From Tannerellaceae bacterium (lineage in GTDB: Bacteria > Bacteroidota > Bacteroidia > Bacteroidales > Tannerellaceae), in assembly GCA_031266215.1 (NCBI GenBank), contig JAISBL010000071.1:1-44121 (forward strand): a stretch of DNA of 44,121 bases, given 5' to 3'. This document shows, one piece after another, positions 855-40,152 of this stretch. The position numbers and the translations under genes were made by a program. Below the pieces are notes generated by a model. It saw only the letters and a list, made by a program, of their open reading frames with translations, had not been told where the DNA came from and ran no database searches. The stretch's first letter is position 1. Each line of letters opens with the position of its first letter.

Positions 855-1400
855 ATGGAAACAGTAATGAACGAACCGCTGAAGGAGCAGGAGTTACTTG
901 AAAAATTCCGGGCATTGTACAAGCAATATGCACCGGCATTGATATTTTACGCCACCAGACTTGTTGATACGACTACGGCGGAAGATCTTGTGCATGATGT
1001 ATTCTTAAAGGTGTGGAATAAACGGTCGTTTATTTTCTGGGAAGAGAGTCTGAAATCTTACCTCTATAACGCAGTGCGACACGGATGCCTTGACTACCTG
1101 AAACATGAGGAGGTGAAAGCTAATTTTGAAAACAGCACGCTGATCAAACTTAAAATCGAAAAACTGTATTATAGCGAAACGACGGCTTTACTGTGGCAGG
1201 ACGACAACCGGCTACAGTATATTTATAAGCAAATAGACGCCCTGCCGCCGAAATGTCGCGAGATATTCATAATGGCCTACGTCGAGGAACGCAAAACGTC
1301 AGAGATAGCTTCGCTCCTGAGCATTTCCAAACGCACCGTAGAAGCCCAGTTGTATAAGGGCCTTAAATACATAAGAAAATCCCTGCATGCCTTTGTCTGA
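855..1400 (+). CDS. ECF sigma-70 family RNA polymerase sigma factor
   Basis: This 181-residue protein matches the ECF sigma class that Bacteroidetes pair with FecR-type anti-sigma factors to control SusC/D loci. Region 2 covers about residues 18-85, with the core-binding/-10 stretch AEDLVHDVFLKVW, and region 4 covers about 125-178, with the helix-turn-helix TSEIASLLSISKRTVEAQ. The usual length is 160-200 residues. It is followed by the anti-sigma gene and then susC, the classic order, so it should recruit RNA polymerase to the susC promoter when the outer-membrane transporter signals. The start could be the ATG at 855 or the one at 867; an AAGGAG 23 bases upstream of 855 is too far away to decide. 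Confidence 0.93.
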   Translation: METVMNEPLKEQELLEKFRALYKQYAPALIFYATRLVDTTTAEDLVHDVFLKVWNKRSFIFWEESLKSYLYNAVRHGCLDYLKHEEVKANFENSTLIKLKIEKLYYSETTALLWQDDNRLQYIYKQIDALPPKCREIFIMAYVEERKTSEIASLLSISKRTVEAQLYKGLKYIRKSLHAFV

Positions 1401-1537: not shown

Positions 1538-2620
1538 ATGAACGAGGAAGACATGAACCAGATCGTATCCGGGTGGGTGATACACTACCTGCATCAGGAT
1601 ATTTCGGAGGGCGAATTGACGGATTTATACCAATGGTTGCAGGAATCGCCTGAAAACAAAGAATTTTTCTTCCAGATAAAAAGCATATACGATTCTACCC
1701 GCCATCACAGGCTGATGAGCGCCGAAGAGGTGGAAGAAAGCTGGCAACGCATGCAACGCCGGTTGTTCTCCCCCCCAGCCACCACCTCCCCTACCCTTCC
1801 CGAAAAAAGCGATCCTTCGCAGCCTGCGGGTGGTAAGAGACGCTTTCTCCGCCCGTTCACATACATGGCCGTAGCCTCGGTGGCCGCACTTCTGGGGTTC
1901 GGGATAAGTATGCTCACACAGTCGGTATTTCCTGAAACATCTCCGGTAAATGAAATGAGCTATAACGAGATCAGCGTGCCCAAAGGCGGAAGACCCGGCG
2001 CAATCACGCTATCCGATGGCACGAGAGTGCAATTGAACGTAGCCGGAACATTACGCTATCCCGCCGGCTTTTCAGACGATTGCCGCGAAGTATATCTCAA
2101 TGGGGAAGCATGGTTTGAAGTGGCGCATGATGCAGAAAAGCCCTTCATCGTCCATTTAAACCGGCAGGACATCATCGTACACGGAACCAGCTTCAACGTA
2201 GAAGCCTATCACGACGAACCGTACAGCGCTGTAACCCTGATGGACGGGAGCATCTCGCTGGAAACATCCAATAGCAGCGGCGAACGCATCAGCCGGATAT
2301 TTATCAGGCCCGGGCAGAAAGCCAATTTTGACAAGGTGTCGGAACATATTTATGTCGAAAATGCCGATGCAACTATGGCTAACGCCTGGACAAGGGGCGA
2401 ATACAAATTCAGGGACGAGCCGCTCGGACTTATTGTCAAACGGCTTGAGAACTACTACAACGTGAGGATAATGCTGGACTATGACCTCAGAGACATCCGC
2501 TACACGGGCACCTTTTCATTCAGCCAGAGTATAATACAGGCGCTGAACATCATCAATTACGAAAAACAATTCAGCTTCAGACAGAATGGTGAGAACGAGA
2601 TACTTATCAGGAAACAATAA
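1538..2620 (+). CDS. FecR-family anti-sigma factor
   Basis: The 360-residue protein has a cytoplasmic N-terminal region (1-100) expected to bind the sigma factor, one transmembrane helix near 105-126 (YMAVASVAALLGFG), a periplasmic FecR domain (about 140-245, including GEAWFEVAHDAEKPF) and a C-terminal DUF4974-like domain (about 285-360) that in this family contacts the N-terminal signalling domain of SusC. The SusC encoded next carries such an STN domain, so sensor and transporter match. The 137-base gap from the sigma gene is longer than usual. The family and order make this role secure; the inducing sugar is unknown. Confidence 0.93.
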   Translation: MNEEDMNQIVSGWVIHYLHQDISEGELTDLYQWLQESPENKEFFFQIKSIYDSTRHHRLMSAEEVEESWQRMQRRLFSPPATTSPTLPEKSDPSQPAGGKRRFLRPFTYMAVASVAALLGFGISMLTQSVFPETSPVNEMSYNEISVPKGGRPGAITLSDGTRVQLNVAGTLRYPAGFSDDCREVYLNGEAWFEVAHDAEKPFIVHLNRQDIIVHGTSFNVEAYHDEPYSAVTLMDGSISLETSNSSGERISRIFIRPGQKANFDKVSEHIYVENADATMANAWTRGEYKFRDEPLGLIVKRLENYYNVRIMLDYDLRDIRYTGTFSFSQSIIQALNIINYEKQFSFRQNGENEILIRKQ

Positions 2621-2799
2621 TAACATTAGTCGTATAATCCCTAAACACCCCAATGCCTATGAAACACGCAAAAGGATAAAAATCAATGACCCCGGAGGAA
2701 AAACCGGTTCAAAAACCCTTAGTTAACCACGCTCATACGTTGCGCGTCGGTCAAAAACAAGCAACTAAAGAGCTATCAATAAAAAAAACTATTAAAAGC

Positions 2800-5700
2800 A
2801 TGAAGAAAAGACTAAACTGTAACAGCAGTAATAGTAAGCTTAGTTGTAAGCTGCATATCAAAAGAATCGCACGCATAACACAGGTGCTGACAGTCCTCAT
2901 CATGGCAGGCATCCTCCATGTATCGGCCGCCACCTACGCCCAGGAACAACGTATATCTGTACGGATTGAGAATGGGACTTTTTATGACGTTGTCACACAA
3001 ATAGAAAAACAATCAGAGTTTATGTTTTTCTACAAAAGCGAAGATATAGACAATAATCAGCGCATTACTCTCGAAGCCCGCAACAAACTGGTATCAGACA
3101 TCCTCAATGAATTGCTCAAAGGCCGGGGAATGAGTTATCAGATCATGGATAAGCATATCATCATTACAAAAAACAACACTTCGTCTGCCGCCGCCCCTCA
3201 ACAGCAAATGCGTACGATCAGCGGCGTTGTAACGGATGCCGCACGGGAACCGCTCGTCGGAGTGAACGTGATCGTCAAAGGCACAACCAACGGCTCCATC
3301 ACCGACATAGACGGTAAATTCACGATAACCCAGGTGCCGCCCGGAGCTATCCTTCAGATAAGCTACATCGGCTACGCTTCACAGGAAATACAGGCAGGCA
3401 ACGCGTCTAATTTAAACATCACGCTGCTGGAAGACTCCAAAGCTCTGGAAGAAGTTGTAGTAACGGGTTACAGCACCCAGAAGAAGCGTGACCTTACGGG
3501 ATCGGTCGCCGTTGTCAAACTCGACGAAGTAGAATCCATCGTATCAAGTAACGTCATGCAGACGCTGCAGGGCCGCGTTCCGGGCGTATTCATCACCTCA
3601 ACCGGGAATCCCAACGGAGACGCTACCGTACTTATACGAGGCGTCAGCACCCTTGGCACATCAAGCAACCAGGCGCAAAGGAGCACGCCGCTTTACATCA
3701 TTGACGGCGTACCGACACAGGCTAACATGAGTACCCTTTCATCACAGGATATAGAATCCATACAGGTGCTCAAAGACGCTTCGTCGGCAACCATATACGG
3801 CTCGCGGGCTTCCAACGGCGTTATCATCATAACAACCAAGAAGGCCGACAGGCAAACCACTTCGATAAGGCTGAGAAGCTCCATGAGCGTAAGGCAGTAT
3901 ACCGAAAAGCCCCTTAACTGGCTCAATACCTACGAACGCGGATGGGTGCAGTGGCGCGCCGCCCGTAACGACGGCACAGACCCTGCAAACAACGGCTGGC
4001 CTTATTCCTTCGTCGATCATCAGGACGCTAATGGCAACTGGGTGTTGGACGAGATACAGTACCCGGAGTTCCTGGACGCTACCACGCAAACCATGCGCCC
4101 GGCCGATACCGACTGGGTGAACGAGATATTACAAACATCGGTTACGCAAAACTATAACGTCACCGTTTCTACCGGAGGCAACAAGGGACGGGCCCTGCTG
4201 GCGCTGGACTATCTGGACAACGTAGGTTCTGTGAAAGGGACGTACAACAACCGTATGAGCCTGCGCATCAATTCAGACTATTCGGTAATCGAGAACAGGC
4301 TGACAATAGGCGAAAACATTTCTCTGTCGAAGACCAAAAGAAGCCGCCTCAACGCCAGTTCGCTATTGAACTCCACGCGGCAGATACAGCCAATCGTGCC
4401 CATACATACCGTGAACGGCGTTGACTGGGGAGGCGCTACAGGCGCTATGGATGATAATGGAAAGAATCCGCTTCGTATCATCGAATGGAATGAAGACAAT
4501 TACGATAATATCATGAGGCTGTTCGGAGACGTACACCTGGACCTGGAAATTATCAGGAACCTGCACTACCGGACAACACTCGGGCTGGATCAGAACTTTA
4601 CATGGCGAAGGGTTATGACGAGGCCTTTCAGGGACGGCGGACAGTCTGACCCGACTTCACGCGTGGAAAGCACCCTCAACCGGCAGGGTACGCTCATCTG
4701 GAACAATACCCTCAACTACTCCTTCAATCTGAATAATCATGCCTTCGATGTACTCGTCGGGCACGAACAGACTGATATGACGCAGGACTACCAGTCGTAT
4801 ATGCGCGATGGTTACGATTCGCTGGACAAAGACTATATGTATATCTTCACCGGCACTTCGGGCATCACGCTAAACAGCTCCGGCGGAACGAACTCGGCAA
4901 CCCAGTACCGGTTACTGTCTTACTTCGGCAAGGCTAATTACAATTACAACAACAAATACCTGGCGTCATTTACCCTCCGGCACGACGGGTCTTCACGGTT
5001 CGGCGCCAACAACCGCTTCGCCACCTTCCCGGCCTTCTCACTCGGATGGCGCATAAGCGAAGAAGACTTCTTCAAGTCGGCCGTACCATTTGTCTCAGAC
5101 CTGAAGCTCCGCTACGGATGGGGTATGACAGGTAATCAGAACATTGACGACTTTGCTTCCTACGGGCTCTACGAAGCCCGATATACCAGCGACTGGACGG
5201 GCCGCACGACCTACGACATGAGTACGGCTTACGACATCACGGGACAGGGCACGGGCATCGCCCCGATGGGTTTCAGGCGTACGCAGTTGGCAAACTCCAA
5301 CCTTAAGTGGGAGGCCTCTACGCAGAACAACGGAGGTATCGACTTCGGACTGTTCGACCAGAAGCTTACCGGGTCGGCAGACTATTTCTTCATCAAGACT
5401 ACCAACATCCTCGTTACGCCTCCGTCACTGGCTGTACTGGGCGAAGGCGCCAACCGGTCGGTCAACGGCGCATCGATGGAAAACAGGGGATTTGAGTTCC
5501 TCCTGTCTTATAACGACAAGATAAGCGACCTGCGTTACACCGTAACCGCCAACCTCAGCGCTTATAGCAATAAGGTGACTTCGCTCCCCAATGAAGTTAT
5601 AACACAGTATCCCGGTAACGGCGTGGATAAAACGATACTGGGACGTCCGCGCAGCGTGGTCTTCGGCTACGTAACCGATGGTATCTTCAAATCACAGGAT

Positions 5701-6336
5701 GAAGTAGACGCCCATGTCACCCAGGCCGGAAAGGGAGTAGGAAGGCTGCGTTACCTCGACATAGCCGGCCCGAACGGCAGCGGCCCCGATGGTCTGATCT
5801 CCGATGCCGACCGCGACTTTATCGGCAAGACCGATCCCGATTTCACGTACGGCTTGAACATCACGCTGCAATACAAGCAGTGGGATATGAATGTCTTTTT
5901 CAACGGAGTGCAGGGTAGTTACGCCAATGTAGGCTCTACCAAGCGCAACGAGCAGTTCATAGGAGCTTCCGAAGCCGCCGGACAAAACTACGGCAAGAGC
6001 ACACTGGAAACATGGACGTATGAGAATTCGAACTCCAACATTCCCGCCCTGTCGCTCAGGGACGTGAACTCCGAAAAGTCAAGGATGTCTACCTACTTCC
6101 TCGAAAACACGTCATACTTCAAACTGCGTAACGTAGAAATAGGTTACACCATTCCAAAACACATCACCTCAAAGGCGCTTATTCAGAACGCACGCGTGTA
6201 CTTCATCGGTGAGAACCTGTTCAAGATATACAAGAAATCCGGCGACAATGCCTTTACCGGAGCCGATCCCGAAACACCCGGAACGGCCTATCCCATTCCT
6301 CTCTCTATGACCGTAGGTCTTAATGTTACATTCTAA
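2800..6336 (+). CDS. SusC/RagA TonB-dependent outer-membrane transporter
   Basis: From the chosen ATG the product is 1178 residues. It has a signal peptide (hydrophobic TQVLTVLIMAGILHVSA, cleavage near TYAQ), an STN domain (about 50-123) for signalling to the anti-sigma factor, a CarboxypepD_reg-like beta-sandwich (about 139-210), then a TonB plug beginning near EEVVVTGYSTQKKRDLTGSV and a beta-barrel to the C-terminus, ending NVTF with an aromatic last residue. It imports oligosaccharides across the outer membrane with SusD as lid, powered by TonB. The ORF track starts 38 residues earlier at 2686, but that stretch is hydrophilic and would bury the signal peptide, so I prefer 2800. Confidence 0.95.
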   Translation: MKKRLNCNSSNSKLSCKLHIKRIARITQVLTVLIMAGILHVSAATYAQEQRISVRIENGTFYDVVTQIEKQSEFMFFYKSEDIDNNQRITLEARNKLVSDILNELLKGRGMSYQIMDKHIIITKNNTSSAAAPQQQMRTISGVVTDAAREPLVGVNVIVKGTTNGSITDIDGKFTITQVPPGAILQISYIGYASQEIQAGNASNLNITLLEDSKALEEVVVTGYSTQKKRDLTGSVAVVKLDEVESIVSSNVMQTLQGRVPGVFITSTGNPNGDATVLIRGVSTLGTSSNQAQRSTPLYIIDGVPTQANMSTLSSQDIESIQVLKDASSATIYGSRASNGVIIITTKKADRQTTSIRLRSSMSVRQYTEKPLNWLNTYERGWVQWRAARNDGTDPANNGWPYSFVDHQDANGNWVLDEIQYPEFLDATTQTMRPADTDWVNEILQTSVTQNYNVTVSTGGNKGRALLALDYLDNVGSVKGTYNNRMSLRINSDYSVIENRLTIGENISLSKTKRSRLNASSLLNSTRQIQPIVPIHTVNGVDWGGATGAMDDNGKNPLRIIEWNEDNYDNIMRLFGDVHLDLEIIRNLHYRTTLGLDQNFTWRRVMTRPFRDGGQSDPTSRVESTLNRQGTLIWNNTLNYSFNLNNHAFDVLVGHEQTDMTQDYQSYMRDGYDSLDKDYMYIFTGTSGITLNSSGGTNSATQYRLLSYFGKANYNYNNKYLASFTLRHDGSSRFGANNRFATFPAFSLGWRISEEDFFKSAVPFVSDLKLRYGWGMTGNQNIDDFASYGLYEARYTSDWTGRTTYDMSTAYDITGQGTGIAPMGFRRTQLANSNLKWEASTQNNGGIDFGLFDQKLTGSADYFFIKTTNILVTPPSLAVLGEGANRSVNGASMENRGFEFLLSYNDKISDLRYTVTANLSAYSNKVTSLPNEVITQYPGNGVDKTILGRPRSVVFGYVTDGIFKSQDEVDAHVTQAGKGVGRLRYLDIAGPNGSGPDGLISDADRDFIGKTDPDFTYGLNITLQYKQWDMNVFFNGVQGSYANVGSTKRNEQFIGASEAAGQNYGKSTLETWTYENSNSNIPALSLRDVNSEKSRMSTYFLENTSYFKLRNVEIGYTIPKHITSKALIQNARVYFIGENLFKIYKKSGDNAFTGADPETPGTAYPIPLSMTVGLNVTF

Positions 6337-6348
6337 ATCTTATTTATC

Positions 6349-8106
6349 ATGAATATCATAAAATATATATGTATCGGCGGGCTGGCTGTAATGCCGTTGG
6401 CATGTACCGATTTTCTTGACGTTAACCCCAAGGGAACACTGAGCGACGGTCAGTTGAACAGCGTCGATATGGTGGAGAAAATGATCCTCGCCGCTTATTC
6501 CCATGTAGAAAACGACAACCGCGAGCAGTCTCCCTGGCTGTTTTCAGACATCCGGAGCGGCGATGCCTACAAAGGCGGCAGCAACTCCGGCGACATGGCC
6601 TGGGCCGGAGATATCGAGGTTTCATCCACTATCAAGGAAAGTTCCGTGGAATTCAGTTATAAGTGGGAACGGGCCTACGTTGCCATCTCACGTGCAAACA
6701 ACGCCCTGGCGCGTATCAACCAGCTATCCGAAGCCGAGTACCCCGATAAGGTAAAGAGAATGGCCGAGATGCGTTTCCTCCGTTCATTCCAGTTGTTTCA
6801 GATCAAGCAGATATTTAATCATGTCGTCTGGGTAGACGAAAACATGACCGAAGACGACCTTCTGAATGAATCTAACGTGAAGTACTCTGATCAGGAGCTT
6901 TGGGGCAAGATAATTGAAGACTTTGAGTATGCAACGAATAACCTGCCTGCCAATAACGGAGATATTGGCAGGGTGAGCAAATACTCGGCCATGTCATTCC
7001 TTGCCAAGGCTCTGATATATGCCGCCTATGTGCAGGCGCCCAATTATACGATCGAGCGTATCGACCTCGACAAGATGAGGCAGGTGGTAAACCTGGTGTC
7101 GCAGATCGAGGGTAGCGGCAAATACAGGCTCAACGACGACTTTGCCAAGAACTTCCTCTGGGAATATGAAACCCAGTCGACCGCCGAAGTTACCGAGTCG
7201 ATCTTTGCCGTCCAGAGCACGCACGATGACGGAACGACATACGGCAGGCTCAACCAGTTCAGCCTCCTCTCCTACCCGGCCTCCCCGGAATATGGATGCT
7301 GCGTAATGCACCTGCCGTCGCAGAATCTGGTGAATGCTTTCAAGACAGACCCACAGACCGGACTGCCTTTGTTTGATACCTATGATGAAGGGTTCCAGAT
7401 CACGACGGGCGAAGACATCGACAACCATCCCGAAGTAACGGTTGACCCCCGCCTCATGCACACGGTAGGCATGATAGGCAAACCGTATAAATATGATGTA
7501 GACTATCCTCTGCCGGAGAGCGGCATCAGGGCCGGCGGATACTACGGGACCTTTGTCTCGCTCAAGGAGGTGGAGACCTTCAACTGCCCCTGCTACCGGG
7601 TCGCACTGTATTTCAGGGGAAGCTCTTTGAACCGTGACCTGATCCGCTACGACGAGATATTGCTGTTCAAGGCCGAGGCTCTTATCCAGATCGGCGGCGC
7701 TGCCGAGCTTGAAGAAGCGCGCCAGATAATCAACCAGATCCGTGTGCGCGCAAAGAACAGCACAGGCCGGCTGGTTATGAAGGACGGAACGCCTTCGGCA
7801 AACTTCAAAATCGAAGAATATCCTAACGACGGTAAGTGGACAAAGGACTATGCATGGCAGGCGCTGCAATGGGAAATGCGTCTCGAACTGGCGATGGAAG
7901 CCCGCCGCGGTTTCGACCTCGTCCGCTGGGGAATTTCAGCCGAAACGGTCAACAAGTATTATACGGTAGAGAAAACCCGCAGGACGGCTTATATGACCAA
8001 TGCCGAGTTCACTCCCCAGAAGCACGAGTATCTGCCCATACCCAACCGACAGATAACATACAGCAGGGGCTTGTACAAGCAGAATTTAAATTATGACCAG
8101 ATATAA
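6349..8106 (+). CDS. SusD/RagB-like glycan-binding lipoprotein
   Basis: The 585-residue protein begins with a lipoprotein signal peptide (lipobox around MPLAC, Cys 19) followed by TDFLDVNPKG, the usual SusD N-terminus. The C-terminal part has the RagB/SusD signature (EMRLELAMEARRGFDLVRW, then YLPIPNRQI near the end). The helical TPR-like body forms the surface lid over SusC and binds the incoming glycan. It starts 12 bases after susC and is surely co-transcribed. Its ligand cannot be read from sequence; the GH32-like neighbour suggests fructose-containing chains. Confidence 0.95.
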   Translation: MNIIKYICIGGLAVMPLACTDFLDVNPKGTLSDGQLNSVDMVEKMILAAYSHVENDNREQSPWLFSDIRSGDAYKGGSNSGDMAWAGDIEVSSTIKESSVEFSYKWERAYVAISRANNALARINQLSEAEYPDKVKRMAEMRFLRSFQLFQIKQIFNHVVWVDENMTEDDLLNESNVKYSDQELWGKIIEDFEYATNNLPANNGDIGRVSKYSAMSFLAKALIYAAYVQAPNYTIERIDLDKMRQVVNLVSQIEGSGKYRLNDDFAKNFLWEYETQSTAEVTESIFAVQSTHDDGTTYGRLNQFSLLSYPASPEYGCCVMHLPSQNLVNAFKTDPQTGLPLFDTYDEGFQITTGEDIDNHPEVTVDPRLMHTVGMIGKPYKYDVDYPLPESGIRAGGYYGTFVSLKEVETFNCPCYRVALYFRGSSLNRDLIRYDEILLFKAEALIQIGGAAELEEARQIINQIRVRAKNSTGRLVMKDGTPSANFKIEEYPNDGKWTKDYAWQALQWEMRLELAMEARRGFDLVRWGISAETVNKYYTVEKTRRTAYMTNAEFTPQKHEYLPIPNRQITYSRGLYKQNLNYDQI

Positions 8107-8220: not shown

Positions 8221-9786
8221 ATGTTTTACACATCACATACTGTTTGTTTTTTCATGTTCATGCTCGTCCTGTTCTGTTCATGCGGACAGGACGACGCAGG
8301 AACTGATCCCCGTGTTCACTTCTCATCATCCGGAGGCGACCCCGTCGGCGCACCTGCCGGAATGATATATTACGATAATGTATACCACCTGTTTTACCTC
8401 CATGACGGTAATAGCATGAAAAACCCCGGGCGCTGGGGACATGCCGTAAGCAACGACCTCATCAGTTGGGAGCATAAGGACGTCGTCATTTTCCCCCACA
8501 TCCCAGGCTCGGTTGGGGCGGGGAGCATAGTGGCCGACGTGCGGAATACTTCCGGACTGGGAACAGACGGCAATCCTCCGCTTGTGGCCATCTTCACCTG
8601 CACTGATAATGAGAAGTTGCAGGAAGGAGATATTTACACCCAGACGCAATGCCTAGCGTATAGCCTAGATAAGGGTGATACGTGGACGGCGTATGAGGGT
8701 AATCCTGTTATTTCAAATCCCGGTATATCCGACTTCCGCGACCCTAAAGTCTTCTGGTATGAGCCGCAGGGCTACTGGGTCATGGTAGCAGTGACTAATG
8801 GAAGGGTCGGATTCTATACCTCTCCTGATCTGAAAAGCTGGACGCATAGCGGCGACTTCGGTTCCGGTGTAGACATGGCCGAGAATGCATGGGAACGCCC
8901 AGACCTCTTTGAGCTTTCGGGTGATGACGGAGGCGAAAGGCAGTGGATACTGACCGTAAGCGTCGGGATGGGCTTGTATAATGACTGGGTGACCGGTTTC
9001 TTTGCAGGCGTATTTGATGGGAAAACCTTCGTAACCGACCAGACCTCTCCTTACCGTATGGACTATGGCCGGGATAACTACGGCGGCATGACGATAAGCA
9101 ATACAGGCGACAGGCGCCTGTGGATAGGGTGGCTGAATAACCCTGCATATGCCGACGCCGCAGCGGCGTCGCGATGGCCGGGGGCGATGACCATCCCGCG
9201 CAGCCTGCGCCTGGAAAAGACGCCATACTACTCTTTTGTGGCCTCGCTTCCTGTCCGGGAGCGGAGCGTCCTGCACGGAGAACGGGCGGAGGCGGACGGA
9301 CTGGTAGTTAAACAGGATATTCACTCCGAAGGTATATCAGACCTCACCCCGCTACTCTCAGCCCCGCTTACTCCCTCGGAGGTAAGCATCCGTTTCAGGG
9401 CCAGTGGCGATCACTGGTTGCAAATGGGGAACGCCGAGAAATTCGGACTGAGGCTCAGCAACGGCAGAGGCGAATATATCCTTGCCGGCTACGACGCCTA
9501 TCACCAGCAATTCTATATAGACCGTACCAGCTCTGCGGCGCTCGATTTACCGCCCTCGTACGCAGGCGTTCACCTGCAACAATATCCAATGGAGGAGTCA
9601 AACAGTCTTGAGATGCAGATAATCATTGACGCTTACTCGCTCGAGATGTTTGCAATGGACGGGAAGGTAGTATTTACCGAGCGGCTGTACCCTTCCACGG
9701 CGTTTGACCGTCTGGAAGTGTTTGCCGAAAACGGTAAGGTGAATGTTGAGAATATATCTGTCACCCCATTCAAATCGCACGAGTAA
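8221..9786 (+). CDS. GH32-like lipoprotein lacking the usual nucleophile
   Basis: From the ATG at 8221 the product has 521 residues with a lipoprotein signal (LVLFCSCGQ). The N-terminal five-bladed propeller is GH32: YHLFYLHD, WGHAVSNDLISWEH, the transition-state motif FRDPKV and the acid/base motif WERPDLF are all present, and a C-terminal beta-sandwich follows (about residues 360-520). However, the WMNDPNG block reads GDPVGAPAGMIYYDNVYH; aligned without gaps, the nucleophile Asp is Ala (GCA at 8350-8352). An Asp four residues earlier could substitute only with an insertion in the loop. GH32 enzymes cleave fructans or sucrose; here the protein may be a binder or an altered enzyme. The ORF-track GTG at 8185 lies in the hairpin, so I use the ATG at 8221. 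Confidence 0.85.
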   Translation: MFYTSHTVCFFMFMLVLFCSCGQDDAGTDPRVHFSSSGGDPVGAPAGMIYYDNVYHLFYLHDGNSMKNPGRWGHAVSNDLISWEHKDVVIFPHIPGSVGAGSIVADVRNTSGLGTDGNPPLVAIFTCTDNEKLQEGDIYTQTQCLAYSLDKGDTWTAYEGNPVISNPGISDFRDPKVFWYEPQGYWVMVAVTNGRVGFYTSPDLKSWTHSGDFGSGVDMAENAWERPDLFELSGDDGGERQWILTVSVGMGLYNDWVTGFFAGVFDGKTFVTDQTSPYRMDYGRDNYGGMTISNTGDRRLWIGWLNNPAYADAAAASRWPGAMTIPRSLRLEKTPYYSFVASLPVRERSVLHGERAEADGLVVKQDIHSEGISDLTPLLSAPLTPSEVSIRFRASGDHWLQMGNAEKFGLRLSNGRGEYILAGYDAYHQQFYIDRTSSAALDLPPSYAGVHLQQYPMEESNSLEMQIIIDAYSLEMFAMDGKVVFTERLYPSTAFDRLEVFAENGKVNVENISVTPFKSHE

Positions 9787-9803: not shown

Positions 9804-11174
9804 ATGGCTCAGCAAAACACACAGTCGCTTAAAGTCGGAATGACCTTTATGGCGATCATCTTCTTCGTTCTCGGATTCATCACCAACTTTAACATGGCGC
9901 TCAAGGATCAGGTGCAAACCACATTTGACCTCAGCGCCACAATGGCCCAGTTGGTCAACGGGGTTTTCTTTTTCGCCTACTTCTGCTTTTCGCTGGTCTG
10001 CGGCGGATTTATAAGGAAGATAGGATACAAGAACGGCGTAATATCAGGGCTTCTGCTGGTAGCCGCGGGCAGCTTCCTGTTTTACCCTGCCGTTGCGGGG
10101 ACGCCTTCCTACGCCCTATTCCTGACTGCGATCTTCATAATGGCGACAGGCGTCGTTTTCCTCCAGACAGCGGCCAATCCTTATGTGGTTGTCCTTGGGG
10201 CTCCCGAGACGGCCCCGGCCCGCCTGACCACAGTGCAGGCCATGAACAGCATCGCCACCACGATCGCCCCGTTCCTTGTAGGGCTTTTCATCCTCACGCC
10301 GGCTTCGCTGGCGATGGGGCCCGGAGCGGTTCAGATGCCTTTTGTTATAATAGGCTCGCTGGTATTGCTGATTGCGGCTGGCGTCTACCTGTCCAGACTC
10401 CCCGGCATTGAACAATCGGATACGGGCGGCAAGAAAGTATGGCAGTACCCGCAGGTTTTGCTTGGCGCCCTGGGCATCTTCTGTTATGTAGGGGCAGAGG
10501 TAGGATGCTCCACGCAGATAGTCCCATATCTCGAAACGGGCGGTTTCTCAAAGGGCGAGGCAGGGCGGATTGTAGCCATCTACTGGGCCGGAGGCATGAT
10601 CGGGCGTTTCCTGGGTTCGTTCATGCTAAGTTCCCTCAGCAATTCCCGGAAATACCTTTATTCGTCGGCCATACTGCTCTTCTCCTTTTTCGCGGGCTGG
10701 TTTATTTTCAGTTCGCAGATAGTGGAAGGCAGGTTCGTTTTTCATTCGCAACTCCTTCACGGCATGATATTTTTCGGCATGGCTATAGTCAATTTCCTTG
10801 CTATGATAGCCGGCAGAGGAAATCCTAATGTATCTTTGGGCGTTTTTGGCATAGCAGGAGCTTTACTGGCGGCAGCGGCTTTCGTCCTTCCGATTCCTCT
10901 GGGGATGTGGACTTTGCTGGGTGTAGGATTCTTCAATTCCATCATGTTCCCGACCATATTCTCGCTTGGGGTCCGCGATCTTGATCCGACCGAAATGCCT
11001 CTGGCATCGGGCATGATAAATACGCTGATCGTCGGAGGGGCTGTTGTTCCACTGGCTATGGGTTGGTTCACCGACCATATAAGCGTGCGTTCGGCCCTTA
11101 TCCTGCCCGTTATATGCTTTGCATACATAGCTTTTTTCGGGCTTAAGGGCAGTAAGATCAGGAGGAGGGTTTAG
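9804..11174 (+). CDS. FHS/FucP-like MFS sugar permease
   Basis: This 456-residue protein has about 12 hydrophobic helices and the traits of the fucose/glucose-galactose permease group: a short start, FVLGFITNFNMALKD in helix 1, and QTAANPYVVVLG in the middle of the N-half. It should import a monosaccharide by proton symport across the inner membrane. It lies 17 bases after the GH32-like gene, matching fructan loci in which a permease takes up released fructose. The actual substrate (fructose or another hexose) is inferred from context. No frame problems are visible. Confidence 0.88.
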   Translation: MAQQNTQSLKVGMTFMAIIFFVLGFITNFNMALKDQVQTTFDLSATMAQLVNGVFFFAYFCFSLVCGGFIRKIGYKNGVISGLLLVAAGSFLFYPAVAGTPSYALFLTAIFIMATGVVFLQTAANPYVVVLGAPETAPARLTTVQAMNSIATTIAPFLVGLFILTPASLAMGPGAVQMPFVIIGSLVLLIAAGVYLSRLPGIEQSDTGGKKVWQYPQVLLGALGIFCYVGAEVGCSTQIVPYLETGGFSKGEAGRIVAIYWAGGMIGRFLGSFMLSSLSNSRKYLYSSAILLFSFFAGWFIFSSQIVEGRFVFHSQLLHGMIFFGMAIVNFLAMIAGRGNPNVSLGVFGIAGALLAAAAFVLPIPLGMWTLLGVGFFNSIMFPTIFSLGVRDLDPTEMPLASGMINTLIVGGAVVPLAMGWFTDHISVRSALILPVICFAYIAFFGLKGSKIRRRV

Positions 11175-11211: not shown

Positions 11212-11850
11212 ATGAAATCAACATCTGGCATCAGAGCCGCATTCGTTTTCGCATTCTCAGTCATGTTCATGTGTGTTTCCGCCCAAAAGAAAGATATGGG
11301 CGTATTTGATGGTTACGGCGACGTAGGCAACCCCAAACTGACAGGCAGCTTCAGCTACGACCAGTCTTCCGGGGCTTACACTATCTCCGGCGGAGGCATC
11401 AATATCTGGAATGGGAGCGATCAGTTTTTCTATGCGTGGAAGAAAGTGAACGGTAACTTCTCGCTCACGGCAAAGGTGGCTTTTGAGGGTAAGGGTGTAG
11501 ACCCGCACCGTAAAATCGGAGTTATGATACGCCAGTCTCTTACCGGGGAGGCGAAGTACGCTGATGTTGCCATTCATGGCGACGGACTGACTTCACTGCA
11601 ATACCGTTCCGAAAACGCAGGCCAGACCAAAGAGGTCGTAGGCCCAAAGGGCGGCAATTACGTCACCCTGGAAAAGGTCGGTAATAAGATCCGTATGAGA
11701 ACGGCTACGGATGCGGCCCCACAGGAAGTGACGGGAGAAATAGAGCTGGATTTCACAGGTACTTTCTATGTAGGTATTTTCATCGGCTCCCACAATACCG
11801 ACGTGCTCGAGACAGCGCATTTCACCAGCGTAGAATATAAAAAGTTATAA
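11212..11850 (+). CDS. Secreted concanavalin-like (DUF1349-type) domain protein
   Basis: The 212-residue product has a signal peptide (FVFAFSVMFMCVSAQ) and a single beta-sandwich domain. Its motifs GVMIRQSL, YADVAIHGDGLTSLQYRSE and FYVGIFIGSHN are typical of DUF1349-like, LamG-type carbohydrate-associated modules. The same domain forms the C-terminal third of the next protein, with matching GGG-NxW, MIR-SL, HADGLTSLQYRSE-like and FYIGMF stretches, so the two arose by duplication or domain sharing. It sits 37 bases after the permease gene and 22 bases before its relative. A glycan-binding role in the periplasm or at the surface is an inference from the fold class; no catalytic residues are evident. 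Confidence 0.7.
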   Translation: MKSTSGIRAAFVFAFSVMFMCVSAQKKDMGVFDGYGDVGNPKLTGSFSYDQSSGAYTISGGGINIWNGSDQFFYAWKKVNGNFSLTAKVAFEGKGVDPHRKIGVMIRQSLTGEAKYADVAIHGDGLTSLQYRSENAGQTKEVVGPKGGNYVTLEKVGNKIRMRTATDAAPQEVTGEIELDFTGTFYVGIFIGSHNTDVLETAHFTSVEYKKL

Positions 11851-11872
11851 CCACACTTAAATCTCTGTTTTT

Positions 11873-13390
11873 ATGACATACAAATCAATTGCATTATGCC
11901 TTGCGGCCTGCCTTTCTGTTCCCGCCGTTATTGCGCAGCAGAATTTTGGGCGCGGCCCGAGGGTTGTCAGTATACTCGAAGTATACGACGTAAGTACAGG
12001 CTCCCGCAGGGTAGTCAAAGAATTTAACGGCACTATCGAAGCCCCTAACTGGACTCCCGACGGCAAATGGCTCGTGTATAACAGTAACGGACAGCTTTAC
12101 CGTATATCTCCCGACCTGCCCGGCGCCAGTCAGGAAGCAATCAATACCGATTACGTAACGAGTTGCAATAACGACCATGTAATAAGCGCCGACGGTAAGT
12201 TCATCGCCCTCAGCAGCAGTCCGGCCGAAGACCGGCGTTCACGCGTCTATGTCGTGCCGATAGAGGGAGGCGTCCCCCGGCTGGTAACTCCCATAGGCCC
12301 CAGCTATCTTCATGGTATCAGTCCGGATAATAACTTCCTTGCCTATTGCGCCGACCGTAACGGCAACTACGATATCTACGTCACCCCTACCCTTGGCGGA
12401 CGTGAACGGAGACTGACTACGGCCGAAGACCTCGACGACGGTCCTGAATATTCGCCCGACGGCAAACACATCTGGTTTAATTCCGTACGTACCGGACTGA
12501 TGCAGGTGTGGAGGATGAAAGCCGACGGGTCTGAACAAACGCAGATGACCTTTGACGAGGATCGTAACTCATGGTTCCCGCATGTTTCTCCCGACGGCAA
12601 ACAGGTAGTCTACATCACCTACCGCAAGGGAGACCTGGAGCCAAACCAGCATCTGCCCAACAAGAACGTAGAACTTCGCCTCATGCCCGCTGCCGGCGGA
12701 TCGCCCAGGACTGTTGTCGAACTGTTCGGCGGACAGGGAACGATCAATGTAAATTCATGGGCGCCCGACAGCCGGCGTTTCGCTTTTGTAAGCTACCGGC
12801 TCGAAGCCCCTACCGCTCCCGTGCAGATACCCGCCCAGTTTACCGGCTCAGGTGACGTAGGAGCAGTGAAGTCGAAAGGTTCCTATAAGTATGACTCCTC
12901 CACAGGCCGCTATTCCATAACCGGCGGAGGCGAAAACCTCTGGGCGCAGGCCGATGAGTTTTATTATGTATGGAGAAAAGACAGCACCGACTTTACCCTA
13001 TCGACCACCCTTGCATTTAACGAAAAAGAGGGCAACGCCCACAAAAAGACGGGCCTCATGATACGTGAGTCGCTTGCTCCCGACGCTAAATACGTGGATA
13101 TAGCCATCCATGCCGACGGGCTTACATCCTTGCAATACCGCTCTGAAACAGGAGGAATAACCCGTGAGATCACCACGCTCACAAAAGGAGCCGACCACAT
13201 CGTACTGATCCGCAAGGGCACAAAGCTGACCATGCGCACGGCTGTCGGTGGAACGCCACGTCAGGACAATGCCTCGATCGAGATTGACCTCCCAAAGGAG
13301 TTTTACATCGGCATGTTTGTATGCGCCCATGAAGCAGGCGTCACCCGCACCGCTGATTTTTCGGAGGTGAGATATATCAGACAGCAATAA
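11873..13390 (+). CDS. PD40 beta-propeller with C-terminal DUF1349-type domain
   Basis: This 505-residue protein has a signal peptide (LAACLSVPAVIAQ), then about six TolB/PD40 blades (APNWTPDGKW, SADGKFIAL, SPDNNFLAYC, SPDGKHIWF, SPDGKQVVY, APDSRRFAF; about residues 30-310), and finally a beta-sandwich domain (about 325-505) homologous to the preceding small protein. No peptidase catalytic domain is present, so a binding or scaffold role is more likely than hydrolysis. Being secreted and in the locus, it could act in the periplasm on sugars or partner the small domain protein. The function is not known to me. Confidence 0.75.
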   Translation: MTYKSIALCLAACLSVPAVIAQQNFGRGPRVVSILEVYDVSTGSRRVVKEFNGTIEAPNWTPDGKWLVYNSNGQLYRISPDLPGASQEAINTDYVTSCNNDHVISADGKFIALSSSPAEDRRSRVYVVPIEGGVPRLVTPIGPSYLHGISPDNNFLAYCADRNGNYDIYVTPTLGGRERRLTTAEDLDDGPEYSPDGKHIWFNSVRTGLMQVWRMKADGSEQTQMTFDEDRNSWFPHVSPDGKQVVYITYRKGDLEPNQHLPNKNVELRLMPAAGGSPRTVVELFGGQGTINVNSWAPDSRRFAFVSYRLEAPTAPVQIPAQFTGSGDVGAVKSKGSYKYDSSTGRYSITGGGENLWAQADEFYYVWRKDSTDFTLSTTLAFNEKEGNAHKKTGLMIRESLAPDAKYVDIAIHADGLTSLQYRSETGGITREITTLTKGADHIVLIRKGTKLTMRTAVGGTPRQDNASIEIDLPKEFYIGMFVCAHEAGVTRTADFSEVRYIRQQ

Positions 13391-13426
13391 CCCTCTGTAT
13401 TATTTACTTCAAACCAACATAGTATC

Positions 13427-14020
13427 ATGATAAAGAAAACAGCTTTTCTCCTGTGCCTGCTCCTCATTGCTATTTCCCCGAAAGCCCAGACAGGGCAGAT
13501 CAGCGAAGGGAGTATCATTAACGGAACCAACGGCAAACCGGCCGGCGTGGTCTACCAGTACGATCCCGCTACGGCTACAGGATATATGGTAAGCCTTGTG
13601 GAGACGCAACTGCCCTGGGGGGATACCGGTACAAACATCGACCGCCTCGACGACCACATCAACAGCGCACTTGCCGGGCAGGAACTTTCGGGGTTAGTCA
13701 ACACCGCCGCTATCGTATCGCAACTGGGCGCAAAAACCCCGTATGCGGCCCGCTGGTGTTTTGAACTCAATGCCGGAGGGCTCACCGGATGGTACCTGCC
13801 TTCCTGCGGCGAATTAAACATACTCCTCTCCAAAAAGCAGATCGTGAATCAGGCCCTCGAAAAAGCCAAAGCCCCGCGCATAGCCAATGCCTGGCACTGG
13901 TCGAGTTCCGAAGGCGACGACACTCTTTCGTGGAACGTCAATATGTCGGGCGGCGATAACTATCCGGCCGATAAAAGCGCAACCCGGCAGGTTCGTGCAA
14001 TCCGGAAGTTTTACAAGTAA
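13427..14020 (+). CDS. Small secreted DUF1566-like protein
   Basis: The 197-residue product starts with a signal peptide (LLCLLLIAISPKAQ). Its C-terminal half shows the DUF1566/Lcl pattern: a Gly-rich TGWYLPSCGELNILL stretch, then WHWSSSEGDD and a closing TRQVRAIRKF. Such domains form C-type-lectin-like folds in secreted or surface proteins of Bacteroidetes. It follows the PD40 gene by 36 bases and is likely the last gene of the operon. Ligand and role are unknown, and no cysteine pair pattern or metal site is obvious. Confidence 0.65.
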   Translation: MIKKTAFLLCLLLIAISPKAQTGQISEGSIINGTNGKPAGVVYQYDPATATGYMVSLVETQLPWGDTGTNIDRLDDHINSALAGQELSGLVNTAAIVSQLGAKTPYAARWCFELNAGGLTGWYLPSCGELNILLSKKQIVNQALEKAKAPRIANAWHWSSSEGDDTLSWNVNMSGGDNYPADKSATRQVRAIRKFYK

Positions 14021-35847: not shown

Positions 35848-38703
35848 TTATTTAAGCTCCTTTATCCGTATATCACGAAACCTGACCGGCGACCCGTGTC
35901 CGAGGAAACCTATATGCCCTTTCTTATTGAAAAGTCCGGGATGCTCACGTTTATCCGGCGTCCCGTTTTTTGTAGCCTCGCGGATATTCCCGTCGAGTAT
36001 CACTTCGCCATTCAAAGTTACCCTGATGTGGTCGCCGTCGGCAATTACTTCCTGGGTGTTCCATTCGCCGGCAGGTTTGAGATAACCTCTCTTTGCCGGC
36101 AGTATTCCATACACTGAACCATGATACTGATAGGGCCTCTGGTTTTTATAAGCAGGATGTTCATTGTCTAATATCTGCAATTCCATTCCGACATAGGCCG
36201 CATCGCCTTCTTTAGGCGTACGGATGCCCAGGCCATTGTTAGCAGCCGGGGTCAGCTGAAAATCAAAGCGGAGGACAAAGTTAGCGTACTCGTCCTTTGA
36301 ATACAGGTTCCCGCCGGAGCCTTTGCCCGGTGTCAGTGTGATAGCGCCGCCCTGCAGGGTATAATCTATGGTATTACCTGTCCACTCAGACATATTCGTT
36401 CCGTCGAACAGTACCTTATACCCCTCTTTCTTTTCCTCATCGGAAAGGACGAACGGTTCCGTGCGATCCGGTTTCAACTCTTCTTTTGACAGCTCTTCCA
36501 GATGTTTCCTTATGTTTTCACGCTGGTAATCGGCATCCGGATTATCTAATACCGCTGATACCTTATTTAATAGCTCCCTAACTTCGGCGCCCGTGTAAGA
36601 CGTATTGTTTAACGCGATATTCATAACGGCACTGGAGGCAGCCTGCTGTACGGGCTTATCATCCAGGAAGCCTCCGGCGTACAGTAGCGCCCGGAATGAG
36701 CCGGTTCTTCCTATTTGTCTGAGGATCGTATTAGTCTGTTCATTGGTACGGGCTATCTCCATTGCCTTGCGAAGGTTCAGGTAGCGACTTTCGCCGGTAA
36801 GGGCCGCATTTGTGGATACAGACCTCACATAGGCGGTAAGAGCGCGGTCAAAATAGGCCGATGCAGAGGCGTCTACGCATATAGTGTACAATTCATCCGC
36901 CGACTCCGCGCCCTTCCACGCCAGCAAAGCTTCAAAAGCCGCCTCCCTGGATGCGCCGCTGCCTTGCCGGAAGCCGGTTACAATAGTCGTCAGTGCATTC
37001 CTGTCGCCTGTCGCCGACAGCACTACATAATATAAATGCCTGGCGCTTTCTTCCGCCTGTAACATACGTCGCGAAATGACCGGCGCTTGTTCCTTTGCCG
37101 GAAGAGAGGACACAGAGGCTATGACAGCCTGCTGCAAAGGGGAAACGGCCGTAGCGTCAGCCGTTTCAAGCATGCCGCATAACAATGTCATGTCTTTTTC
37201 GGTCGCTACGTTTTTAAGCGCAGTATAAGCCGCTTTCTTCACTTCGGGTGAACCTGTTTTTATAAGGTCGAGAACCGTATTGATCCGCGTATGGGCCTTG
37301 CGCATAGCCAGGATTTCAACGGCGGCGATCTTCCCTGCGTCCGGAGCGCTGGAAATGACGCGGGCTACGTCGGGCACCACATCTCCCCTGAAAGCAATCA
37401 GCGCGTTGCGTCCCAGTGAAATATCATGTGCTTCTGTCCGGGTAAGCAGATTCGCCAGCGATGGAATAAAAGAAGAATCGCCTATCCTGACCAGAGCCCA
37501 TACGGCAGCCTGCCTGACGGAAGAATCGCCGCTCTTGAGCTGGTCGAGTATCACCTGTCCGGCAGGAAGGTCGAAGCGGATATTGAGAGTTCTGATAAGA
37601 GCGCTCTTTTCCGTTATCTGGCTCTCGCGTCCTATCCAGTTCAGTATATCTGCTTTCGCCTCCGGTTTCGCTTTCACCATTGTTTTGAGCAATTCCACGT
37701 ATACCTCGCGTGAAGCAAAATCAGAGGTGTAGTCCAATGCCGCATTCCGGTATTCGCGGGAAGAATCCTTTAGCGCGGCCTGGACTCGTTTCAGACCTTT
37801 TTCTTTCTCCACAGAAAGCAAAATCTGTAAAGCCGCGTTCCGGGTATGTGGCTTCCCTTCCTTTGTAGCCTTTTTGAGCAGTTCTGAAGCCGCTTTTGAT
37901 GCCTCCTGGGTATCCCCCTGTTTCACTAATTGTTTAAGCAATGCTATGTATGCCTCGTTCGCGCCTGTTTTATCCCAATCAAGATTTACTTTTTCGGCGC
38001 CTGAAGATAATTCATTCAATGATGATTTACCTCCGACCTGGCTCAAGGCATAAAATATTGCCTTCTGAGAATCCTCGTCCCGATTTGCAATCATATCTTT
38101 CAGGAGGTTTTCTGTATCGGATATATGGGTTTCTCCTAATGCAAATATTACGTCACGCATGGAATTGGGCGTCCCAGACCGTCTTAATAGCGCTGATTTC
38201 AAAGCCTGTACAGCTTTCTCCGTGCCTATGGAAGCCAAAGCCCGCGCGGCTGGGTCGCTGAGGCTTTCTTCATTGAGATAACGCGCCAGGGCATCTACGC
38301 TCTCATCCTTGCCGATTATTTGCAATTGGCTTATTATGAAAGCTTTCTTTTCGCGCTCATCTACTATGTTCAAAGCTTTAACGTAGGCATTGGATGTAGC
38401 CAGGCGAAGGCTCTCATCGCCTTTTCCCGCCGAATAATTTGAAATACCACTCAGGGCGTACTCCACTTTTGAATTGTCTCCCTGCCCGGGAGCATGGAGC
38501 ATTTTTACCAGTGCCAAAACACCTTCTTCACCTGTTGAAAGCACATCAGCTAATAGTTTGTTATAGTCAGCCTGGTTATTGGCAGGCATTTGAGCTAATA
38601 CGTCGGCTACGATGGTCGCGACAGTACGGTTCTCCTGTGATTGCAGCGCCGGAATGTTTACCAACAGAAAAAGTAATGAAATCAGTGCATATATTCTTTT
38701 CAT
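35848..38703 (-). CDS. HEAT-repeat protein with C-terminal 3-keto-disaccharide hydrolase (DUF1080) domain
   Basis: From the ATG at 38703 the protein has 951 residues with a signal peptide (LISLLFLLVNIPALQSQ). About 700 residues of HEAT/PBS-type helical repeats (AVWALVRIGDSS, AALDYTSDFAS and similar) precede a C-terminal DUF1080 domain (about 770-951; YKVLFDGTNMSEW, ANFVLRFDFQL, EWNTQEVIADGDHIRVTLNG). Stand-alone DUF1080 proteins are 200-260 residues; this fusion is large. The domain is linked in other bacteria to hydrolysis of 3-keto-glycosides. It lies 28 bases after a Gfo/Idh/MocA oxidoreductase gene on the same strand, which would supply the 3-keto substrate. The track start 33 residues earlier lies in the intergenic gap and upstream gene. 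Confidence 0.85.
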   Translation of the reverse strand: MKRIYALISLLFLLVNIPALQSQENRTVATIVADVLAQMPANNQADYNKLLADVLSTGEEGVLALVKMLHAPGQGDNSKVEYALSGISNYSAGKGDESLRLATSNAYVKALNIVDEREKKAFIISQLQIIGKDESVDALARYLNEESLSDPAARALASIGTEKAVQALKSALLRRSGTPNSMRDVIFALGETHISDTENLLKDMIANRDEDSQKAIFYALSQVGGKSSLNELSSGAEKVNLDWDKTGANEAYIALLKQLVKQGDTQEASKAASELLKKATKEGKPHTRNAALQILLSVEKEKGLKRVQAALKDSSREYRNAALDYTSDFASREVYVELLKTMVKAKPEAKADILNWIGRESQITEKSALIRTLNIRFDLPAGQVILDQLKSGDSSVRQAAVWALVRIGDSSFIPSLANLLTRTEAHDISLGRNALIAFRGDVVPDVARVISSAPDAGKIAAVEILAMRKAHTRINTVLDLIKTGSPEVKKAAYTALKNVATEKDMTLLCGMLETADATAVSPLQQAVIASVSSLPAKEQAPVISRRMLQAEESARHLYYVVLSATGDRNALTTIVTGFRQGSGASREAAFEALLAWKGAESADELYTICVDASASAYFDRALTAYVRSVSTNAALTGESRYLNLRKAMEIARTNEQTNTILRQIGRTGSFRALLYAGGFLDDKPVQQAASSAVMNIALNNTSYTGAEVRELLNKVSAVLDNPDADYQRENIRKHLEELSKEELKPDRTEPFVLSDEEKKEGYKVLFDGTNMSEWTGNTIDYTLQGGAITLTPGKGSGGNLYSKDEYANFVLRFDFQLTPAANNGLGIRTPKEGDAAYVGMELQILDNEHPAYKNQRPYQYHGSVYGILPAKRGYLKPAGEWNTQEVIADGDHIRVTLNGEVILDGNIREATKNGTPDKREHPGLFNKKGHIGFLGHGSPVRFRDIRIKELK

Positions 38704-38731
38704 AACTGTTATGTATTTACTGTTTGTCTGA

Positions 38732-39988
38732 CTATATATTCCATGGAGAACGCATTGGCTGCCACAGGAGGCGGTTAGCCTCTTCGTCATTGATGAACTC
38801 AAGTTTCACAGGGTCAAACTGAAGTGTCCGGTTCAGGCGCAATGCCACTGCTCCCATATTTACAATTGTAGCAGAGCGAAATCCGCTACGTTCATTCAGA
38901 GCGAAGGGTTGACGTGTTTTTACCGATTCGATAAAGTCGGACACCTGTGGCTCCGGCTCGGGATAATCGGCAAGTTTCTTTTCCCAGCCGGGTATGTCGC
39001 ACACAAAGTTCTTATACACATTCCCGTTAGGCCCGGATATATATGGCGTTTGGGGGTCGCCGTAATCGCCTCCCCAAAGGATAATCCGGCAACCATCGCC
39101 GTATGTATACGTAATAGATCTCCATGTTCCCACTGCGTCGGGATGTTGCTGTGGAGCATCCACTTCCACTTTTATAGGACTTGTATGGTCTTTTCCCAGG
39201 AAATACTGTACCGGGTCTATATAATGTTGCCCCATATCGCCGAGACCTCCCCCGTCGTAATCCCAATAGCCCCGGAATGTCTGGTGTGTGCGGTGCAGGT
39301 TATATGGCTTATAAGGGGCGGGGCCTAACCAGAGGTCGTAATCCAATCCTGCCGGGATAGTTTGTGGTTCCAGGTATTCCTTTCCTACCCAATAAAACTT
39401 CCAGTCAAAACCGGTATGCTTGCTGATGGTCACAGTCAGTGGCCAGCCAAGAAGTCCGCTTTGCACTAATTTCTTCAGTGGTTTCACCGGCGTTCCTAAT
39501 CCGTAGAACGTATCTGTGAAGCGAAACCATGTGTTCAACCTGAACATGCGCCCGTACTGCCTGACTGCTTCCATAACTCGCCTGCCTTCTCCAATGGTGC
39601 GTGTCATCGGCTTTTCGCACCATATATCTTTCCCGGCTTTAGCGGCTTCTACCGACATAATCCCATGCCAATGCGGCGGCGTGGCAATGTGAACAATATC
39701 AACGTTAGGATCTGATATGAGTTCGCGGAAGTCATGATAGGCGGCAATCTTGTCCGCCACCAGTTTCTGACCCAATTCAAGATGGCTTTTGTCTACGTCG
39801 CACACGGCTACCAGGCGTGTGCCTGCATAGTTGAGATGGCTTCGTCCCATCTCTCCGGTTCCAATAATACCTTTTGTCAATTGGTCGCTTGGGGCTATGA
39901 AGCCTTTTCCCAAAACGTGCCGCGGAACAATCGTCAGTACCGTCATTCCGCCCAAAGTTTTTAAAAAGTTACGTCTGTTTGTTATCAT
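38732..39988 (-). CDS. Gfo/Idh/MocA-family oxidoreductase, Tat-type signal
   Basis: From the ATG at 39988 the protein has 418 residues, with a twin-arginine-like start (NRRNFLKTLGG) suggesting export with cofactor bound. The Rossmann motif KGIIGTGEMGRSH and the EKPM motif (catalytic Lys) are present, followed by the alpha/beta substrate domain. Such exported enzymes oxidise or epimerise sugars or glycosides with a tightly bound NAD(P). Upstream of the HEAT-DUF1080 gene, it probably makes a 3-keto-glycoside. The ORF-track start 23 residues earlier would place a hydrophobic stretch ahead of the RR motif and is less likely. Confidence 0.85.
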   Translation of the reverse strand: MITNRRNFLKTLGGMTVLTIVPRHVLGKGFIAPSDQLTKGIIGTGEMGRSHLNYAGTRLVAVCDVDKSHLELGQKLVADKIAAYHDFRELISDPNVDIVHIATPPHWHGIMSVEAAKAGKDIWCEKPMTRTIGEGRRVMEAVRQYGRMFRLNTWFRFTDTFYGLGTPVKPLKKLVQSGLLGWPLTVTISKHTGFDWKFYWVGKEYLEPQTIPAGLDYDLWLGPAPYKPYNLHRTHQTFRGYWDYDGGGLGDMGQHYIDPVQYFLGKDHTSPIKVEVDAPQQHPDAVGTWRSITYTYGDGCRIILWGGDYGDPQTPYISGPNGNVYKNFVCDIPGWEKKLADYPEPEPQVSDFIESVKTRQPFALNERSGFRSATIVNMGAVALRLNRTLQFDPVKLEFINDEEANRLLWQPMRSPWNI

Positions 39989-40152
39989 GATATAGATGTA
40001 ATAAAATAGTTTTAAAGTTAAGCTACACAGAAAATATATCGTGGTTGTGTCTTTCACTCCTTGCCGGGGAAGTATATGAGACCTTTACAAGAAGCCGGTG
40101 TGTGCTGAGATAAGCTATACCTGCCGCGGTTATAACTCATTTTTCATAGCGA

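Follow-up and report, generated by a model that had tools for sequence, protein, structure and literature searches.

The open frame at 8221-9786 of the window, by which we mean the whole stretch of 44,121 nucleotides analysed here, encodes a GH32-like predicted lipoprotein whose catalytic pocket is degenerate, and on balance we consider it to be a GH32 pseudoenzyme, which would derive from a fructosidase encoded in a fructan PUL of Tannerellaceae and now serve as a non-catalytic binding or scaffold subunit associated with SusCD. Gut-type relatives of Tannerella keep it beside a fructan-type import system, presumably a former fructan SusCD system, of which it is probably a non-enzyme part. In the mechanism we propose, the protein, a predicted outer-membrane lipoprotein, would descend from such a fructosidase, and its pocket would have decayed in a lineage of the locus with ECF-sigma/FecR control and without a fructokinase. 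Having presumably lost hydrolysis, it may now stand beside SusCD at the cell surface, perhaps in contact with SusC, as a non-catalytic binding or scaffold subunit whose position would be comparable to that of the GH32 levanase in the B. thetaiotaomicron levan utilisome, minus hydrolysis. Its C-terminal sandwich would be the indispensable part.

The gene and the region with an insert shared by its clade are as follows.

8221-9786, plus strand: GH32-like predicted lipoprotein, open frame of 521 aa plus stop, lipobox LFCS followed by C21
9256-9783, plus strand: region with a short insert (about residues 367-371), common to the clade and missing from active GH32s

The region 8326-8400, on which the original prediction had focused, falls within this 521-codon frame and reads SSSGGDPVGAPAGMIYYDNVYHLFYL, just as described there. 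Both GH32 domains are present (Pfam PF00251, 3e-65; PF08244, 5e-22), and the top Foldseek matches of the AF2 model all belong to GH32 (8i12, 1y4w and 3sc7; TM about 0.72-0.77), which places the protein in this fold and sequence family; matches in NCBIfam are far under the curated cut-offs. The AF2 model, built on an 11-row alignment, has a pLDDT of 71.8 and a pTM of 0.75, and it does not place Asp40 because residues 1-43 have a pLDDT below 50. The lipobox was taken from the sequence by reading, and lipidation is predicted. No other GH32 match was found in the 87% complete genome to which the window belongs, and the protein is 41-44% identical to its closest active-type relatives.

The following positions of the pocket were assigned from alignments.

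8338-8352, plus strand: D40 to A44 in GDPVGAPAG, Ala44 at the nucleophile site (Asp40 codon 8338-8340, Ala44 codon 8350-8352)
8398-8400, plus strand: Leu60 at the fructose-binding Gln site (1y4w Q57)
8515-8520, plus strand: Gly99-Ala100 replacing FS of FSGS (1y4w F102, S103)
8737-8745, plus strand: RDP motif Arg173-Asp174-Pro175, kept
8893-8898, plus strand: acid/base Glu225, kept, with the next Cys changed to Arg226
9142-9144, plus strand: Pro308 at the Trp site of active GH32s (1y4w W335)

Active beta-fructosidases carry the nucleophile Asp in WMNDPNG, and the window protein reads GGDPVGAPAG here, with Ala44 at the nucleophile site, while FRDPKV, WERPDLF and WGHAVSNDLISWEH are all found; in these points the sequence agrees with the original prediction. 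Its further claim that the nucleophile Asp becomes Ala holds too: phmmer against solved GH32s placed GAPAG on NDPNG, with one residue inserted upstream. The register is fixed independently by three orthologs from the same genus (G013, NWVDGPSG; G003, NRMDAPAG; G017, RQINAPTG), since their boxes WVDGPSG, RMDAPAG and QINAPTG align to WMNDPNG without a gap. These boxes are one residue shorter than that of the window, and xxP[AST]G stands right before the same strand. It turned out that the nucleophile site holds Ala in the window, Gly in G013, Ala in G003 and Ala in G017, so that none of the four has the Asp, and that the letters of the box differ among the orthologs, while the close active-type relatives we examined retain NDPNG. 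As the four boxes all differ and come from separate assemblies, a sequencing error is very unlikely, and we ruled it out on this ground.

The loss extends to most of the remaining -1 pocket. In the exo-inulinase 1y4w we take the contacts of this subsite to include Asn40, Gln57, Trp65, Ser103 and Trp335, and none of these five is found in the window protein, which in 1y4w numbering has lost Asn40, Asp41, Gln57, Trp65, Ser103 and Trp335 and retained Arg188, Asp189 and Glu241. Among nine textbook -1 residues, only the RDP Asp (Asp189, here Asp174) and the acid/base Glu (Glu241, here Glu225) are kept throughout the four orthologs; G003 has His in place of the RDP Arg. The triad roles assigned here agree with PMC6560043. 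Two changes had been missed by the original prediction: the EC cysteine is gone, WEC having become WER or WEQ (Arg or Gln in the orthologs), and Gln57, Trp65, Ser103 and Trp335 are mostly lost across the orthologs.

When positions invariant in 13 active-type relatives were counted in the four orthologs, 14 of 36 pocket cells (nine -1 positions in four orthologs) were kept, against 325 of 436 cells at the other invariant positions, the cells not being independent of one another. A position-wise Fisher test of the pocket against the other invariant sites, with nine positions, is marginal (p 0.06-0.09), so the argument for pocket loss is drawn from the cell counts and from the identity of the changed residues. 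Since 62 of the 118 active-invariant positions survive in all four proteins, the survival of the RDP Asp and the acid/base Glu is compatible with chance, and also with a remaining function of the pocket. The replacements vary among the four orthologs (G/D/D/N, A/G/A/A, L/E/L/L, A/Y/S/L and P/W/R/R), and such variation speaks against a single new active site under conservation. With the fructose contacts lost and replaced differently from one ortholog to the next, fructan binding through the old -1 pocket seems unlikely, and binding at another surface would be possible.

The four degenerate proteins form one clade (100/100, stem 0.82), which is sister to the active or exo-type GH32s of Tannerellaceae; identity to the window protein is 51-52% for G013 and G003 and 45% for G017. 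No further clade members were found beyond these four and G059 among 125 family or 393 order genomes, and the other top matches whose boxes were read, including order-level ones, have NDPNG. The four carriers are draft genomes and partly incomplete. The family was assigned by inference from the Tannerella forsythia contig L031, whose locus is also that of G029, and G029 belongs to the family of the window.

For pairs within the clade, pS is 0.70-0.88 (near saturation) and pN 0.23-0.34, and the single pair with a finite dS gives a dN/dS of about 0.14. As pN lies well under the near-saturated pS, the frame is under purifying selection. With four intact frames under such selection we ruled out a pseudogene, and together with the conserved operon this supports the earlier proposal of a pseudoenzyme with an intact frame. 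We also compared the divergence of the propeller with that of the sandwich, as the ratio of -ln identity (N/C ratio). In 45 active-type pairs its median is 0.38, with 43 of the 45 below 0.59, and in the six pairs of degenerate proteins it is 0.59-1.03; the propeller no longer shows the extra conservation seen in active relatives, and this is general across the clade. With respect to SusD of the same operon, the degenerate protein diverges 3.3-4.4 times faster in three close species, which exceeds every one of 45 canonical GH32/SusD pairs (median 1.2, maximum 2.7). The excess is confined to the close species, as pairs with G017 (1.3-1.4 times) fall inside the canonical range.

The neighbouring genes of the locus, all on the plus strand, are listed below.

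855-1400, plus strand: ECF sigma factor (PF08281/PF04542)
1538-2620, plus strand: FecR-like anti-sigma factor (PF04773/PF16344)
2686-6336, plus strand: SusC-like transporter with STN signalling domain; best solved relative is the B. thetaiotaomicron levan SusC Bt1763 (5t3r_D)
6349-8106, plus strand: SusD-like lipoprotein; best solved relative is the B. thetaiotaomicron levan SusD Bt1762 (5t3r_A)
9804-11174, plus strand: MFS sugar permease, FucP/GluP-like, under the curated cut-offs
11212-11850, plus strand: secreted ConA-like beta-sandwich protein, weak PF17851, AF2 pLDDT 79.5
11873-13390, plus strand: TolB/PD40 beta-propeller fused to a second ConA-like domain
13427-14020, plus strand: Lcl_C-domain protein, the last conserved gene of the locus

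The genes for SusC, SusD, the degenerate GH32, the ConA-like protein and the TolB-like protein are common to the window, G013, G003 and G017. G017 lacks the MFS gene at this locus. G013 has neither an ECF sigma gene nor a FecR-like gene upstream, whereas one or both precede the locus in the window, G003 and G017. The operon is related to fructan PULs. The SusC and SusD are of levan type (9e-253 to Bt1763 and 5e-115 to Bt1762, respectively), and neither an active GH32 nor a fructokinase was found among the genes of the window-type locus. Canonical relatives consist of SusC, SusD, an NDPNG GH32, a kinase-like gene of about 288 aa (putatively PfkB-like, by eye) and a different MFS, which is less than 30% identical to the window-type MFS. 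In G004, which has the SusD closest to that of the window (89%), the contig ends inside SusD, and an NDPNG GH32 is found on a separate contig, where its neighbours are a kinase-like gene and an MFS gene.

When the levan contacts of B. thetaiotaomicron SusD listed in PMC7782687 were compared, the window SusD was found to keep the vicinal Cys pair, Asp67, Arg368 and an aromatic residue at Tyr395, but not Trp85 and Asn43; Trp85 is missing from the canonical relatives too. The kept contacts suggest a ligand that may still be fructan-like. The ligand residues of SusC are uninformative as a fructan test, since most of them are unconserved even in canonical PULs and only Asp406 is kept in nearly all. 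Adjacent enzymes give no substrate clue either: GH2, GH26, GH127 and GH9 adjoin relatives of the locus, and no family is found beside all of them. The AF2 model of the ConA-like protein resembles ConA-like folds, among them GH43 C-terminal domains. We rejected the TolB-like protein as a locus-specific partner, because its family is widespread in the order, with relatives in 39 of the 393 order genomes, and because the genome that carries the locus also has standalone copies. Genes of the ConA-like and TolB-like types are found repeatedly near SusCD loci (11212-14020 in the window; contigs C28 and C29 of G000). Elsewhere in the window, 35851-38802 (minus strand) encodes a HEAT-repeat protein of 980 aa, which has a 3-keto-disaccharide hydrolase domain (PF06439) at its C-terminus and adjoins a Tat-signal oxidoreductase-like gene (38735-40057, minus strand; by eye), possibly a 3-keto glycoside pathway.

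Relatives of the locus carry less of the protein still. In G059, SusC, SusD, the ConA-like and the TolB-like genes are kept and the GH32 propeller is deleted: directly after SusD stands a 206-aa predicted lipoprotein, in which a signal peptide is followed by the GH32 C-domain and which carries the short insert of the clade, and the G059 SusD nests inside the group of the degenerate proteins (100/99). No GH32 was found next to SusD in the sister loci of G046, G040 and G013 (contig 116), the G040 contig ending shortly after. Since canonical PULs carry a GH32, loss would be a simpler reading than gain, and relatives without any GH32 indicate that the subunit is dispensable in some of them. We tentatively propose, at somewhat less than even confidence, a SusCD utilisome whose surface GH32 turned purely structural or binding, with three successive stages: loss of the pocket within an intact fold (four species), deletion of the propeller leaving only a C-domain lipoprotein (G059), and absence of the gene (G046, G040 and the second locus of G013).

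Several other explanations have to be weighed against a non-catalytic subunit. The gene might be a decaying passenger that is losing all function and survives only because the loss is recent. This would agree with its divergence, which is faster than that of its operon (51-60% identity in the three close species, where SusD has 82-86%), with the propeller deletion in G059 and with the sister loci free of GH32, yet we find it unlikely: the four frames are intact at near-saturated synonymous sites, the fold-defining motifs are present in 4 of 4, a clade-specific insert and clade-specific residues are conserved, and G059 has kept a signal peptide and a C-domain rather than debris. It is rather unlikely that the protein is a fructan-binding pseudoenzyme still using the ancestral pocket, in the manner of laboratory traps with the nucleophile changed to Ala. 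GH32 Asp-to-Ala mutants do bind fructans or sucrose analogues (D50A, 3u14; D81A, 9tdv; D42A levanase, PMC7618045), but they keep the remaining -1 residues, and the proteins studied here also lack Gln, Trp, Ser and mostly Trp335.

Two further alternatives would preserve catalysis. A remodelled pocket with Asp174 and Glu225 could perform another reaction or use another glycan; these two residues are kept, as are Asp218, Asn222 and Arg/Gln226, which surround the acid/base and are conserved in the clade, and a permease and a regulator different from those of canonical fructan PULs would fit a new substrate. We regard this as quite improbable, as the known GH-J chemistry requires the blade-1 Asp, the pocket residues vary among the orthologs and the G059 relative manages without the propeller. 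The original prediction had allowed that the Asp of GDPVG might replace the nucleophile, in which case Asp40 would enter the -1 site by a loop shift and the protein would be an ordinary active fructosidase. GDPVG is similar to NDPNG, a GDPTG box is present in L054, another GH32-like protein of Tannerellaceae, and the Asp40 region is left undefined by AF2. The ortholog alignment nevertheless led us to reject this as highly improbable, because Asp40 has no counterpart there: the shorter boxes fix the register, in two orthologs an Asp immediately precedes the nucleophile site, the G017 box is free of Asp, and further fructose-binding residues are gone as well.

The non-catalytic subunit that we prefer shares the five-bladed propeller and beta-sandwich of exo-inulinases and fructosidases of fructan PULs (8i12, 1y4w; Tannerella forsythia L031) and, like Tannerellaceae GH32 fructosidases, is encoded near SusC/SusD. 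It differs from them by the absence of the nucleophile and most -1 residues, and its operon has no fructokinase and has ECF/FecR upstream. The levan utilisome of B. thetaiotaomicron consists of the GH32 levanase Bt1760, the surface glycan-binding protein (SGBP) Bt1761 and the SusDC pair Bt1762-1763 (PMC7618045); in both systems a GH32-fold lipoprotein accompanies SusCD, but the endo-levanase Bt1760 is active, and the window locus showed no SGBP resembling Bt1761. Loops 1 and 9 of SusC carry the levanase, whose D42A variant still joins the utilisome and binds levan, including at a secondary site off the catalytic centre (PMC7618045), which makes a structural or binding role plausible for the degenerate protein. 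Counting against our explanation, the C-domain of the endo-levanase is reported not to be a carbohydrate-binding module (PMC6560043).

Like surface glycan-binding proteins of PULs, the window protein is a predicted lipoprotein (by its lipobox) at a conserved position in a SusCD operon and without evident catalysis, and it differs from them by descent from an enzyme. To our knowledge it is not homologous to SusE/F or Bt1761. GH32 pseudoenzymes are already known from plants. Plant defective invertases such as Nin88 have the GH32 fold without normal activity and are thought to act indirectly; they are never affected in the catalytic triad according to a review and are defined by an intact triad with a lost sucrose-binding couple (PMC3713406), whereas the window protein has lost the nucleophile itself. 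No bacterial GH32 pseudoenzyme of this kind was found in the open-access literature searched (one library). Since GH32 proteins are routinely annotated as fructan hydrolases, predictions of fructan use from PULs would give this clade a wrong annotation, and if our explanation is true, the clade offers a natural series in which to ask what parts of a surface glycosidase the SusCD complex needs when catalysis is irrelevant.

Other degenerate GH32-like proteins were also observed. L054/L057 (contig C56 of G004) are GH32-like, with a shortened N-terminal box GDPTG and without YHLFYQ, in a cluster of several GH32-like frames. A second, separate degenerate group comprises L025 (G058, contig C6), L030 (G012, contig C38), L091 (G107), L092 (G131), L093 (G109) and L094 (G117, fragmented), in which the box is WTGEP[AVS]G (Asp to Glu), RDP has become RSP, KNP or RYP, and WEC is changed. 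In G012, G131 and G117, this group adjoins an NDPNG GH32.
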